A DNA stretch of 22,202 bases from a virus: positions 18,188-40,389 of the IMG/VR virus record IMGVR_UViG_3300030109_003415; one strand, 5' to 3'. The notes beneath the pieces are model-generated. The model saw nothing but the letters and a program-made list of their open reading frames with translations. It searched no databases and was not told the DNA's origin. The first letter of the stretch is position 1; every line of letters begins with the position of its first letter. Positions 17,013 through 22,202 of the stretch are shown here, piece by piece. Made by a program: the position numbers and the translations under genes.

Positions 17013-17309
17013 ATGTCTAATACAGATATAAGTACATCATTGAAAGCCCTTGGGTCTTTCTTATTCAGTAATAACATAGTTATTACTAAAACGAAATCCG
17101 CCAAGGGTTTCATGATATATCAGCCTTCCCAAGTAACTGACGTTGCTAAACTCGAGAGTTTAGCTGCCGCAGTTAATTGGCAAGTCAGCTTCTTCGAACC
17201 TACTTACGATAGAGGCACTCTTGTCAGAGATGCATCTATCTATGTAGGTCCTCGAAGCTCAGCTAATGATATTAGCAATGTTGATGACTTTGTCAACAAC
17301 TTTGCATAA
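17013..17309 (+). CDS. Hypothetical protein, 98 aa, monocistronic
   Basis: The function is not recognised. A good AAAGGAG site precedes the ATG. The protein is a mixed alpha/beta sequence without membrane segments or cysteines (for example KGFMIYQPSQVTDVAKLESL). Its base composition and codon choice are visibly more balanced than in the AT-rich genes around it. It is the first rightward gene, has a long structured leader and is closed by its own strong terminator, so it forms a separate transcription unit. This arrangement suggests strong, separately controlled expression, for instance an early host-takeover or regulatory protein. That is inference only. Confidence 0.8.
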   Translation: MSNTDISTSLKALGSFLFSNNIVITKTKSAKGFMIYQPSQVTDVAKLESLAAAVNWQVSFFEPTYDRGTLVRDASIYVGPRSSANDISNVDDFVNNFA

Positions 17310-18087: not shown

Positions 18088-18230
18088 TACAGGAAGAAGA
18101 ATGGTATAGTGTATGTTGTTATGCTCCACCTTTATATGATTTACATGTAGAAGAAGGCATAGAACCTGCGGGTTTGTGCATGCATTGCAGAGATAATACT
18201 ACATTTGAATTAATTAAGGAGGAAGAATAA
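18084..18230 (+). CDS. Tiny zinc-ribbon protein, 48 aa
   Basis: The protein contains VCCYAPP near the N-terminus and GLCMHCRDNTTFE near the C-terminus: Cys11, Cys12, Cys32 and Cys35 can form a metal site. Small proteins with this CC/CG...P...C.xC..AtFE layout occur widely in phage genomes (recalled pattern), with unknown roles. It is coupled on both sides by ATGA and TAATG overlaps. Confidence 0.72.
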   Translation: MIQEEEWYSVCCYAPPLYDLHVEEGIEPAGLCMHCRDNTTFELIKEEE

Positions 18231-18355: not shown

Positions 18356-18479
18356 AAAGACGCTATGGGTAGCAATATTTATGGCATTCTTTCTACTATT
18401 CTTAGTAGTTAAAGAAAAAGTAAACACGAATAAAATAAAACAAACAATCCTTAAGGAGGGTATAGAATATGTCAAATGA
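18291..18479 (+). CDS. Single-pass membrane protein, 62 aa, overlapping the ubiquitin-like gene
   Basis: The start is a GTG behind an AGGAGG site 7 bases upstream. A charged N-terminal helix (residues 1-24) precedes one membrane segment at about residues 25-40 (LWVAIFMAFFLLFLVV). A Lys-rich tail with the sequence KEKVNTNKIKQTILKEGIEY follows. The last 11 bases overlap the start of the ubiquitin-like gene, whose AAGGAGGG ribosome site lies inside this frame, so the two are probably translated together. It may tether part of the modifier system to the membrane, but no interaction motif is seen. Confidence 0.68.
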   Translation: MRKRYEKNFEIEHLKDTVKCLKKTLWVAIFMAFFLLFLVVKEKVNTNKIKQTILKEGIEYVK

Positions 18480-18681
18480 AACAATAACAATCAATCTATT
18501 AGAGAACGGTGAATTCGCTTCAAGAGAAACATCATCAAAGACAGTTGGTGATTTAAGAAACGAATTAAGCATCCCAGGTGATGCTAATGTTATGGTTGGC
18601 GGAACTATTAGACAAAACGACTATGTTTTGGAAGATAGCGCACTTGTAGCCTATGCAAGTAATAATAAAGTAGGTGGATAG
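18469..18681 (+). CDS. Ubiquitin-like modifier with C-terminal Gly-Gly, 70 aa
   Basis: The sequence fits a beta-grasp fold: strand ETITINLLENG, strand EFASRETSS, the helix KTVGDLRNELSIP in the place of the ubiquitin or MoaD helix, then strands NVMVGGTI and DSALVAYAS. It ends NNKVGG with the stop directly after Gly-Gly, so no processing is needed to expose the tail used for adenylation. The helix phrase TVGDLR and the closing VAYA...VGG resemble MoaD/ThiS and small prokaryotic ubiquitin-like proteins. The genes for an E2-like protein, a JAMM isopeptidase and an E1-like enzyme follow, which supports conjugation to proteins. A sulphur-carrier role is the alternative but is less likely, because no cofactor genes are near. 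The Gly-Gly codons (GGTGGA) are not part of a ribosome site. Confidence 0.85.
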   Translation: MSNETITINLLENGEFASRETSSKTVGDLRNELSIPGDANVMVGGTIRQNDYVLEDSALVAYASNNKVGG

Positions 18682-18797: not shown

Positions 18798-20300
18798 ATG
18801 GAATATTTTAATGGAGTACAGACTTTTGAAGCTAATGATATTAATAAATTAGCTGAATTAAGTCAAGATGAAGCCAATTTATTGGCAATAGGTCCACAAG
18901 AACTATTCTTTAGTAAACTAGAATCAATTAATACTGAATTAAATTATTATGGTATTGATTCAATAGATGTTACTAATAAATGGAATTGGAGACCTGGTTC
19001 TTATGATAAAATTAAACAATACATGTACAAAAAGCTTGAATTAGACAAAAAAGCTATGAGTGTAAGTAAAATTATGATGAGAGCACAAGATAGAATAAAC
19101 TATATGAACTTTGTTCAAAGACAATCTGTTGATATGGAAAGAGAAAGAGCTAATCTTAAGAGATTAGGTGTTTCGAGAGATGTAGATATTGATGAATTTA
19201 AAGACAAATGCATTGAATTTGTAGATAATTTAATTAGCAATTGTGAAAAAGCATATGAATTAACACAGGAAAAAGTATTAATTGTTCCTTATATCTCATT
19301 AGATGAAGGAAGAAATGCTAAACTATTTCTTGATATAATGTTAAAAGATATGGTTTTATCAGTATATGATGGCCATGAAAGCCCTGTATTAATACAAGAA
19401 ATACCATTACAACCAATTCATATATCATTAACTATGCCTTTAAGACATAAAATAAATGGTATGAATATAGATGTAACACCAAATGGTAAGTATAAATCAG
19501 AAGGACCTGCTTTAACTCATCCATATATATCTTTTAGATATAGTAATGGTAATGGTTATGGTACTGTTTGCTTAGATAGATACTTTGATGATGTTAAAAG
19601 AGCATGTAAAAAGAATGATATGGTAAGTTTATCAATGACTTTAATGCAATGGGCACAATATTATAATATCAAAGTAGCAAATCCATACAATCAACCATAT
19701 ATGTCTCATATAGGTATGCCTGAAAACTTCTCGGATGAATACAAAGCAACTCAACCAGCAAGTAGCGTAACTGAAAGATGCGGAAGGGTATTACATAGCT
19801 TTAGTCAAAAAATAAATAGTGACTATTTTGAAGCAGATGAAGTTATAAGCAAAACATGTAATAACATAAAGTGTTCTCTTAAAAATTCTTGTAATTCTCA
19901 TATGAATATTTCTAGAAGAATAGATAATCTAGAAAGTGAATGGGGATGTCAAGTAGAATCTTTTGTTATGATGGTAGTAGACTGGTTATGGGAAGAATAT
20001 GCTGGTGAAAATGGTGATTTAAGTGCTATGAATGTGCCTTTAAGCTTTTTAACAGGTGATGATGCGCATCAACATAATAGAACAGAAGAAGAATATAAAG
20101 AATATATAGCTACTAAACTATTATGGTATTATGCAAACTCACTTAAACAAGAATTTGATGATTATACATATCAATTCTTAGAAAGGTATCATTTCATAGA
20201 TAAAATCAAAGAAGAACCACCATCTGTAGTTGATATGGATGAAGAACAAGTGAAAATAATAATGAAATCATGGGCAGAGACCCAAGGAGGGAGAAGATAA
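18798..20300 (+). CDS. E2-like ubiquitin-conjugating protein with large extra regions, 500 aa
   Basis: An ACCGAGGAG site precedes the ATG. Residues 241-300 carry the E2 active-site pattern in order: HPYIS (His241, Pro242), GTVCLDRYF with candidate catalytic Cys258, the helical segment LMQWAQYY (Trp285) and ANPYNQP at 294-300. This parallels the HPN...G.hCL...W...pNP..P series of E2 enzymes and bacterial E2-like proteins. The preceding strand-rich part (about 158-235) could supply the E2 sheet. A cysteine cluster at 354-368 (Cys354, Cys359, Cys365, His368) may bind zinc. The N-terminal 150 and C-terminal 130 residues are mainly helical and unrecognised, and may be substrate-binding or E3-like. 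The protein is over three times the size of a simple E2. Its stop overlaps the JAMM gene. Confidence 0.72.
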   Translation: MEYFNGVQTFEANDINKLAELSQDEANLLAIGPQELFFSKLESINTELNYYGIDSIDVTNKWNWRPGSYDKIKQYMYKKLELDKKAMSVSKIMMRAQDRINYMNFVQRQSVDMERERANLKRLGVSRDVDIDEFKDKCIEFVDNLISNCEKAYELTQEKVLIVPYISLDEGRNAKLFLDIMLKDMVLSVYDGHESPVLIQEIPLQPIHISLTMPLRHKINGMNIDVTPNGKYKSEGPALTHPYISFRYSNGNGYGTVCLDRYFDDVKRACKKNDMVSLSMTLMQWAQYYNIKVANPYNQPYMSHIGMPENFSDEYKATQPASSVTERCGRVLHSFSQKINSDYFEADEVISKTCNNIKCSLKNSCNSHMNISRRIDNLESEWGCQVESFVMMVVDWLWEEYAGENGDLSAMNVPLSFLTGDDAHQHNRTEEEYKEYIATKLLWYYANSLKQEFDDYTYQFLERYHFIDKIKEEPPSVVDMDEEQVKIIMKSWAETQGGRR

Positions 20301-21259
20301 TGGAATTAGAAGAAGTGTTTTACATAAAAGAAAAAGACTGGTATAAACTTCAAGGATGGGCTACGTTAGCTTATGAAGAAGATAAAAATGAAATATCAGG
20401 ACTAATGACCGCAGTACCACAAGAAGACGGTAGATTTAAAGTTGGTGATGTGGAAATACTAAAGCAAGAAAATACAGGAACTAATACTGACCTTAATGGA
20501 GACTCTGTAAGTGCTTATATGATGAAATATGGTATGAAGTATAAAAATCCAGATATGAAGTTTGTCTGGTGGCATTCACATCATACTATGGGAGCATTTT
20601 GGTCTGGAACTGATACTAAGGAGATAGATGCATGGAAGAATAGTAGTTTCTCTTTGGCTTTAGTTATAAACCTTAAAGAAGAATACTTGTTTAGAGTTAG
20701 TTTCTGGAAGACAAATGGGCTTCCTATAGAGCAACATGTAGATACTACTCTAACTATTGAAAGAGCTGAACCTAAAATAAATATAACAAATGCTATGAAA
20801 AAGCAATATAAAGAACTATGTTCAAGCCCTCAATCAATGGTTAGATATACTGGCGGTTATAGTACATATGGACAAGGATGGTCTAGAAATGTTAATCCAA
20901 ATCAACAAAATATCTGGCATGGTAATAATAAAGAGTCAGAAAAACAACTTGAAATGGAATATGCATATTCTGAAGCACTTGAACAAGTAGAATCAATGCA
21001 AGATGGCTTTATGGATGGAAGTGTTAGCCATAAAGAGTGGAAAAAGAAAGTTAAAAGAATAAATGAAATCTGCAAAACAAAGAAGTTTCCATTTAAAGTA
21101 GTAGAATTCAAAGAAAATAAAAGGGAACTTTTAAATGTTTTAATGACAAGGCTTCCTAGTGAATTGATTGAATGGGAAGATAATCAACTAAAAGATGAAT
21201 TCGAAACTAAAGAATGGAATAATAGTTTTGGAATAGGAGGAAATGACGTATGGCAATAA
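20300..21259 (+). CDS. JAMM/JAB metallo-isopeptidase, 319 aa
   Basis: The start is the ATG at 20300, overlapping the E2-like stop (TAATG) behind AAGGAGGGAG. An in-frame ATG at 20270 lies inside the E2-like gene and lacks a good site. The complete JAMM zinc motif is present: Glu31 in NEISGL and HSHHTMGAFWSGTD, giving His92, His94, Ser102 and Asp105 with the exact HxH-x7-S-x2-D spacing. The JAB fold should cover residues 1-150. The rest is charged and helical and of unknown role. Family members cut isopeptide or peptide bonds after a ubiquitin-like tail. Because the modifier gene already ends in Gly-Gly, deconjugation is the likelier job here. Its end overlaps the E1-like gene by 10 bases. Confidence 0.9.
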   Translation: MELEEVFYIKEKDWYKLQGWATLAYEEDKNEISGLMTAVPQEDGRFKVGDVEILKQENTGTNTDLNGDSVSAYMMKYGMKYKNPDMKFVWWHSHHTMGAFWSGTDTKEIDAWKNSSFSLALVINLKEEYLFRVSFWKTNGLPIEQHVDTTLTIERAEPKINITNAMKKQYKELCSSPQSMVRYTGGYSTYGQGWSRNVNPNQQNIWHGNNKESEKQLEMEYAYSEALEQVESMQDGFMDGSVSHKEWKKKVKRINEICKTKKFPFKVVEFKENKRELLNVLMTRLPSELIEWEDNQLKDEFETKEWNNSFGIGGNDVWQ

Positions 21260-21918
21260 ATATGAGAAGTAGAGGACTAGTAAACAATCTAAGTGACTTT
21301 AATTTTCATATATTGGGATGCGGTGCTATTGGTAGTGCCGCAGCTACCCAATTAGTGAGAATGGGAGCAACTAATTTCTGTTTATATGATAATGATGAAG
21401 TAGATACAGGAAATGTAGGAGTTTCTCAATATACTTTGTATGATGTAGGTCATGCTAAAGTAGATATGTTAAAGTCAAAGCTACATGATGTAAACGATTT
21501 AGCAGAAATAACATGTGTAGATGAAATGTTTGCTAATTATGTGTTTATGAATGATAATGACATAATAGTCTTAGGTTTTGACAGCATGAAGTCAAGGTTA
21601 GATGCTGTCAAGGCCTTAGGCAAATGGAAATACACCAAACCATATGCTGTTATAGATGGTAGGATGGGAGCTGAACACTATCAGCAATATGTGCTATTAA
21701 AGCCTACTTTAGAAGCATATAAGCAGATATGGTATAGTGATGAAGAAGGTAGCGAAGAACCATGCAATATGAAGGCTACAAGCTACTGTAGTAACATGTC
21801 AGGAAGTTTTATAGCAAATGCTATAAGAAAGATTGTGACAAAACAACCTTATGAGGAGTTTGTATCTCTTCATTTTCCTACAATGTCAATAGAAAAAACT
21901 ACTTGTTTATTTAAATAG
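21250..21918 (+). CDS. E1/ThiF-like adenylating enzyme, 222 aa
   Basis: The ATG follows an AGGAGG site inside the JAMM gene end. The Rossmann ATP-binding loop is GCGAIGS at residues 23-29. The next strand ends in YDNDEVDTGN (Asp47, Asp49, Asn55), followed by Gln60 and Lys70 in DVGHAK, the usual E1 ATP and magnesium-binding residues. The Arg of the standard NxxRQ motif is not present (NVGVSQ). PCNMKATSYC gives Cys172 (or Cys180) as candidate thioester cysteine in the usual place before the last helix. It should adenylate the Gly-Gly tail of the ubiquitin-like protein. It is shorter than MoeB or ThiF (about 250 aa), with no CxxC zinc pairs and no extra domains. Confidence 0.88.
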   Translation: MAINMRSRGLVNNLSDFNFHILGCGAIGSAAATQLVRMGATNFCLYDNDEVDTGNVGVSQYTLYDVGHAKVDMLKSKLHDVNDLAEITCVDEMFANYVFMNDNDIIVLGFDSMKSRLDAVKALGKWKYTKPYAVIDGRMGAEHYQQYVLLKPTLEAYKQIWYSDEEGSEEPCNMKATSYCSNMSGSFIANAIRKIVTKQPYEEFVSLHFPTMSIEKTTCLFK

Positions 21919-22073: not shown

Positions 22074-22202
22074 ATGGCACTAAAAAAGGTAAAAAGAAAG
22101 GCTATATCTCAGGACCCTAAAGTAATGTTACTTTACGGTGCACCAAAAGTGGGAAAAACTACAGCCTTAAGTCAATTAGAAGATTGTCTTATAATTGATA
22201 CA
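22074..22202 (+). CDS. P-loop ATPase, Sak4/RecA-like candidate (partial, C-terminus off the right edge)
   Basis: A TAGGGAGGTG site precedes the ATG. The first 43 residues include a Walker A motif at about 21-30 (YGAPKVGKTT) followed by LEDCLIIDT, the start of the second strand. This opening, with a basic N-terminus, VMLLYGAPKVGKTT and then a strand ending in D, is typical of phage Sak4-type RecA-like ATPases and AAA_24 proteins that act in single-strand DNA annealing and replication. The remainder is outside the window, so family assignment is provisional. Its place suggests that the replication genes follow the modifier genes. Confidence 0.7.
   Translation, partial: MALKKVKRKAISQDPKVMLLYGAPKVGKTTALSQLEDCLIIDT

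Follow-up and report, generated by a model that had tools for sequence, protein, structure and literature searches.

How a large phage protein without a recognizable family could serve a ubiquitin-like pathway, and whether it would also select the targets of that pathway, are the questions raised by a locus of the IMG/VR virus record IMGVR_UViG_3300030109_003415. The stretch of DNA that was analyzed, here called the window, comprises 22,202 nucleotides (positions 18,188 to 40,389 of the record, G000:C1:18188-40389), and the record as a whole is 49,125 bases long. An earlier note on this DNA had recognized an E2-type active site in one of the encoded proteins and had suggested that this protein carries a built-in zinc module and might be a combined E2/E3. 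We think, with a probability of roughly 80%, that this protein acts as the E2 in a ubiquitin-like pathway encoded by the phage, which would follow the reaction steps proposed below. This view is based on its invariant cysteine, its UBC-type predicted fold, and its location in a cassette together with a GG-ended beta-grasp modifier, an E1 and a JAB isopeptidase.

A ubiquitin-like gene cassette in a phage replication block

The minus strand of the window record carries genes for a portal, a terminase large subunit and a major head protein as assigned with PHROGs, and these head and packaging genes identify the virus as a tailed phage. A cassette of four genes starts at position 18469 on the plus strand and encodes a GG-ended ubiquitin-like modifier (Ubl), the E2-like protein, a JAB isopeptidase and an E1 in this order, followed by a Sak4-like gene. 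The features of this region are as follows:

18469..18681, plus strand: Ubl, 70 residues, ending in ...NNKVGG (AlphaFold2 model, Foldseek/VIA, relatives)
18798..20300, plus strand: E2-like protein, 500 residues, ATG start (29 relatives; AlphaFold2 model with pLDDT 86)
19188..19712, plus strand: predicted UBC/E2-like core, residues about 131-305 (VIA-align, mostly E2/UEV, ~138-305)
19569..19571, plus strand: Cys258, predicted thioester cysteine in the context GTVCLD (invariant, 29/29)
19680..19697, plus strand: NPYNQP, residues 295-300, at the position of the E2 'PNPxDP' segment (P296 invariant; N295 and Q299 in 27/29; P300 in 28/29)
19758..20297, plus strand: fast-evolving helical C-terminal region, residues 321-500 (all-helical model; ends in conserved [LI]MKxWA)
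19779..19892, plus strand: lineage-specific set of four cysteines, C328, C354, C359 and C365 (co-occurrence among 29 relatives; one change on the tree)
20300..21259, plus strand: JAB/JAMM isopeptidase with E...HSH-x7-S-x2-D (HSHHTMGAFWSGTD at 20573-20614; Pfam Prok-JAB E 3e-4)
21250..21918, plus strand: ThiF/E1-like adenylating enzyme, 222 residues (Pfam ThiF E 5.5e-20)
21763-21765, plus strand: Cys172, candidate thioester cysteine of the E1 (conserved in the window group and in crAss/Flavobacterium phages)
22074..22202, plus strand: start of a Sak4-like ssDNA-annealing ATPase that runs past the window end (its relative L002 matches PHROG Sak4 with E 1.4e-34)

The cassette order is common to about 35 related viral contigs. 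Genes for Sak4, an SSB-like protein and a DnaB helicase lie directly downstream, and the succession of Ubl, E2-like, JAB, E1, Sak4, SSB-like, helicase/primase and HNH is the same in every contig that reaches these genes, with Sak4 after E1 wherever Sak4 is reached. A separate E3 gene was not seen near the cassette, and neither a CD-NTase nor a sulfurtransferase, thiazole synthase or tRNA-thiolation gene was recognized among the cassette neighbors that were read. To judge from the IMG sample numbers, the contigs may be of marine origin.

Three further reading frames of this genome may be mentioned. A 98-residue frame upstream of the cassette (window 17013-17309) is without a convincing family match. 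Downstream of the window, a 286-residue protein (L043:3804-4664 of G000) contains CLYKCNYCYM, a radical-SAM-like C-x3-C-x2-C motif that resembles spore photoproduct lyase, and a protein of 241 residues (L043:7082-7807) weakly matches the phage DNA methyltransferase family PHROG 3820 (E 2.6e-5).

The partner proteins

The AlphaFold2 model of the Ubl (pLDDT 81) shows a beta-beta-alpha-beta-beta-beta arrangement with a disordered GG tail, so that the predicted protein combines a beta-grasp fold with an exposed C-terminal GG. Its best structural matches with Foldseek/VIA are Mth1743 (Foldseek E 5.7e-4; Z 8.3), ThiS, MoaD, TGS, ISG15 and ubiquitin. The terminal NNKVGG is kept in all 21 Ubl relatives. 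Two relatives end in GGQA, two residues past the GG (L036:1581-1784 and L042:3224-3427), and one has a longer tail, and such tails imply that precursor trimming would be required. The Prok-JAB match of the isopeptidase remains under the Pfam cut-off, and its JAMM motif is intact, with the glutamate and the HxH-x7-S-x2-D residues invariant in 37 relatives. In the E1, Cys172 is found in a C-x2-K-x-T context.

The E2-like protein

Relatives of the E2-like protein were gathered from viral contigs with the protein itself, the alignment and the neighboring E1 as queries, resulting in a comparison set of 29 distinct sequences that share 29-84% identity with the window protein. The latter contains H241-P242-Y243, G255-T-V-C258-L-D260 and N295-P-Y-N-Q-P300, in which the earlier note had seen the layout of an E2 active site with Cys258 as likely thioester residue. 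This assignment of Cys258 has gained in strength through its invariance, the UBC-type predicted fold and the Ubl/E1/JAB context. The layout as a whole holds for C258, D260, W285 and P296, which are invariant in the 29 relatives as are Y288 and Y289, and for P242, which like C149 is invariant wherever the alignment covers the position, but not for H241, which is H in 15, F in 10 and Y in 3 relatives. An HPN motif in the strict sense is therefore not present, as the histidine varies and a tyrosine replaces the asparagine. The spacing from HP to the cysteine is 16 residues and thereby exceeds that of canonical E2s. Deviations from HPN are also found in several prokaryotic E2 families (PMC1779556).

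No match to the E2-like protein was obtained in Pfam, PHROG, NCBIfam or PADLOC, nor did a family library identify any of the 29 members as an E2. None of these members matched the Pfam E2 families (UQ_con, Prok-E2_A to E) at E <= 1, and a PDB profile search returned nothing. A sub-threshold match to DUF7939 (E 0.013) was taken as chance. The E2-like and JAB proteins gave no tblastn matches against phage records, and cellular relatives were not found in one scan of genome contigs, which is weak evidence for their absence because the scan used a single pattern.

The AlphaFold2 model that was calculated from a 29-row alignment (pLDDT 86.4, pTM 0.74) consists in its core of a long helix (131-155), a strand meander (160-214 and 227-232), the Cys258 segment, helices 260-271 and 275-287, and then NPYNQP, and this predicted order of elements is that of a UBC domain. 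A Foldseek search of the model against the PDB gave no match with E <= 0.001, and UEV domains (Vps23, Tsg101) were within the list of weak matches. When VIA-align was run over the candidates from Foldseek, the resulting list was dominated by E2 and UEV proteins (UBE2A, UBE2N, UBE2S, UbcH10, UBE2O, Mms2, Rad6), with 120-130 of about 148 residues aligned at 3.5-4 A and Z values of 5-5.7, and with CapZ as the main non-E2 group. Since the Z values alone are modest, the case for an E2 is built on the consistency of these matches together with the motif, the invariant cysteine and the gene context. On the basis of the model and VIA-align, and with Foldseek E values above 0.001, we assign residues ~138-305 to the UBC fold with moderate confidence; the estimate of about 150 residues before and 200 after the core in the earlier note was right within 20 residues. 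Compared with the eukaryotic UBC E2s UBE2A, UBE2N and UBE2S, the window protein has the predicted UBC core and the CLD and NP motifs in common, but it lacks the asparagine of HPN, has a longer loop before the cysteine and about 130 and 195 extra residues, and shows no detectable sequence similarity.

The C-terminal region and its cysteines

Among 20 complete cassettes, the mean pairwise identity is 79% for the E1, 74% for the Ubl, 62% for the JAB protein and 36% for the E2-like protein, and within the latter it is 47% in the N-terminus, 41% in the core and 22% in the C-terminus. Pairwise dN/dS values, calculated according to Nei-Gojobori with a custom script, peak in the C-terminal region of the E2-like protein for almost all close pairs (about 0.3 to 1.2), compared to roughly 0.03-0.2 for the E1. 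As judged from these sequences, the rapid change fits a contact with a variable partner, which could be a target or the host, and relaxed constraint may be an alternative cause. The conserved [LI]MKxWA at the very C-terminus (residues 482-497) follows a variable linker and includes the invariant W492; it could be a docking peptide.

The C354-x4-C359-x5-C365-x2-H368 cluster that had been proposed as a zinc module is literally present in the window protein, but it is incomplete, as C328 goes together with C354 and C365. With H368 found in 4 of the 29 relatives, the reading as a zinc finger of the C-C-C-H type was rejected. The alignment that confirmed the invariance of Cys258 did not do so for the cluster: of the 29 sequences, 16 have all three of C328, C354 and C365 and the other 13 have none of the three, and C359 is present in all 29, including the clade that is devoid of the other three. 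In the maximum-likelihood tree, one change with a branch support of 96/96 explains this distribution, and the co-variation of the cysteines thus represents a single event, a loss of all but C359 in one clade. Repeated independent loss, which had been considered as evidence for a metal site, was accordingly dropped. The retention of all four cysteines in the other lineages, despite the mean identity of 22% in this region, nevertheless argues for a real site, either for a metal or a disulfide, and the model would place C328 beside C354 in a helical hairpin (321-338/343-356). As all but C359 are missing in 13/29, the set is lineage-specific and optional, and because a whole clade does without it, it is neither an essential E3 module nor needed for conjugation in general.

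Proposed pathway and alternative explanations

In the pathway that we propose, the E1 would adenylate the GG tail of the 70-residue Ubl, which would then be loaded onto Cys258 in the E2-like protein, probably via Cys172 of the E1. The E2-like protein would in turn attach the Ubl to a target, at a lysine or some other nucleophile, and the JAB protein would strip it from targets and also trim precursors that extend beyond the GG. As no E3 is encoded nearby, targets are probably chosen by the long flanks of the E2-like protein, and above all, we would suggest, by its fast-evolving helical C-terminal third. The most likely target would be a replication or recombination protein of the phage or a host factor that is met in replication.

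A step further goes the assumption of the combined E2/E3 mentioned above, in which the C-terminal region would be an E3 module, either through metal binding or with C359 as a second thioester cysteine in the manner of HECT/RBR enzymes. The lack of a visible E3 gene, the long flanks, the fast C-terminal evolution and the presence of C359 in 29/29 sequences, even in the clade that lacks the other three cysteines, would be in line with this. However, a RING needs more than four ligands, the set consists of four cysteines and is absent in 13/29, Pfam shows no match to an E3 family, and C359 is located in an interhelical loop of the model without a known catalytic motif; we therefore regard an E3 module as rather unlikely.

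The Ubl model is equally close to ThiS/MoaD and to ubiquitin, and ThiF is the nearest family to the E1, which would also suit a sulfur carrier that is thiocarboxylated for biosynthesis or tRNA thiolation, with the E2-like fold used otherwise. The dedicated E2-like gene with its invariant cysteine, the JAB gene, and the absence of sulfurtransferase, thiazole synthase and tRNA-thiolation genes among the neighbors read make such a role improbable. Finally, the occurrence of UEV domains (Tsg101, Mms2) and of BRE (BRCA1-A) among the structural matches could indicate a UEV/RWD-type scaffold without catalysis, which we consider very improbable indeed, given that Cys258 is retained in 29/29 sequences over the range of 29-84% identity and that the cassette contains no other E2 gene. 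A catalytic E2 remains our preferred reading.

Parallel cassettes in crAss-like and Flavobacterium phages

A comparable gene run exists in the cultured crAss-like phages crAss001 and DAC15, in several uncultured Steigviridae, in Dulem virus 41 and in Flavobacterium phage Fpv3. The order of Ubl, E2-like, JAB and E1 in crAss001 (Gp79-Gp76) and Fpv3 (gp55-gp52) is that of the window, and these cassettes adjoin primase and UDG genes, in crAss-like phages also Sak4. Homology to the window group is firm for the E1 (tblastn 1e-16) and for the JAB protein (hhalign 9.5e-10), the latter with the motif HSH-x7-SG-x-D. The E2-like proteins of these phages, which carry the annotation 'hypothetical protein', comprise 371-444 residues and display HxH...C(L/I/T)G at a spacing similar to that of the window protein, with GGPY where the window group has NPYNQP. 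Their Ubl proteins have a beta-grasp-like N-terminal domain and a variable C-terminal extension after a K-x-SG junction. In cr106_1 (L051:2696-3899), an HNH endonuclease gene lies at this junction between the Ubl (ending in KKIKSGKF) and the extension, which would be expected of a Ubl that forms a unit of its own. The E2-like gene of cr85_1 has relatives in 45 phage records.

As hhalign comparisons of the E2-like and Ubl profiles between the window group and the crAss/Flavobacterium phages were not significant, the link between the groups is drawn from the homologous JAB and E1 proteins, the order of the genes and Foldseek. In BFVD, the window E2-like model matched a protein of a crAss-like phage (ctDAq1), a cr128_1 protein with the same length as the cr128_1 E2-like gene product (435 residues), and a phage protein that is named for a type II CBASS E2 domain. 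Tentatively, and as a possibility clearly short of an even chance, the window group, Flavobacterium phages and crAss-like gut phages may share a widespread and so far unnoticed phage-borne Ubl pathway. Its single large E2 would then take over from an E3 the choice of targets, through its rapidly evolving C-terminal domain, and tag replication/recombination proteins or host factors in the course of infection.

Relation to known ubiquitin-like systems

The bacterial Ubl operon type 6d has separate Ubl, E2-like, JAB and E1 genes (PMC1779556, Iyer et al. 2006). The window cassette is alike in this respect, but the novel helical gene of the type 6d operon was not recognized in it, and its setting in phage replication differs. 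We take type 6d to be equivalent to PRTRC, and the NCBIfam PRTRC models all scored under their cut-offs (E1 28.9 vs 144.75 bits; JAB 14.6 vs 101.8). BilABCD consists of homologues of ISG15, E1, E2 and a JAB/JAMM DUB (PMC11354881), and these four parts are shared with the window cassette. Bil, however, is a bacterial anti-phage system, whereas the window genes are located inside the phage's own replication block, and this location speaks against a defense role of the Bil type. A specific Bil match was not found for the Ubl or the E2-like protein with Pfam and PADLOC, nor for the JAB protein with PADLOC. In Type II CBASS, Cap2 is an E1-E2 fusion and Cap3 a JAB protein. With PADLOC, the window E1 matched E1-E2 models in their E1 half (best E 1.8e-16), but the window cassette encodes its E1 and E2 in two separate genes, the E2-like protein is unmatched and a CD-NTase is absent from the neighbors read, so that the cassette does not conform to CBASS or E1-E2 defense. 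The phage setting and the replication synteny separate the window cassette from the bacterial Bil, CBASS and 6d/PRTRC operons. While ubiquitin-like conjugation operons as such are already known, the complete phage-borne system is probably new. A literature search, in which subscription journals were thinly covered and preprints were outside the scope, found no description of the phage cassettes, and neither ThiF nor thiamine, metalloprotease or ubiquitin appears in the crAss001 paper.

Significance

Work on the ubiquitin-like operons of bacteria has mainly dealt with them as antiviral defense. Here, a complete set of modifier, E1, E2-like protein and deconjugase is found among the replication genes of phages, both in dozens of viral contigs and in crAss-like phages of gut Bacteroides that have been cultured. 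Should our interpretation be true, phages would perform a reversible ubiquitin-like tagging of proteins during infection, and the cassette would offer an accessible case for how E1-E2 cascades pick their targets without E3s. It would also provide a function for crAss-like genes that are now annotated as 'hypothetical', 'metalloprotease domain' or 'thiamine biosynthesis protein ThiF'; the run consists of genes with such annotations in crAss001, DAC15, cr85_1 and Flavobacterium phage Fpv3 (L047, L048, L045 and L046, respectively).
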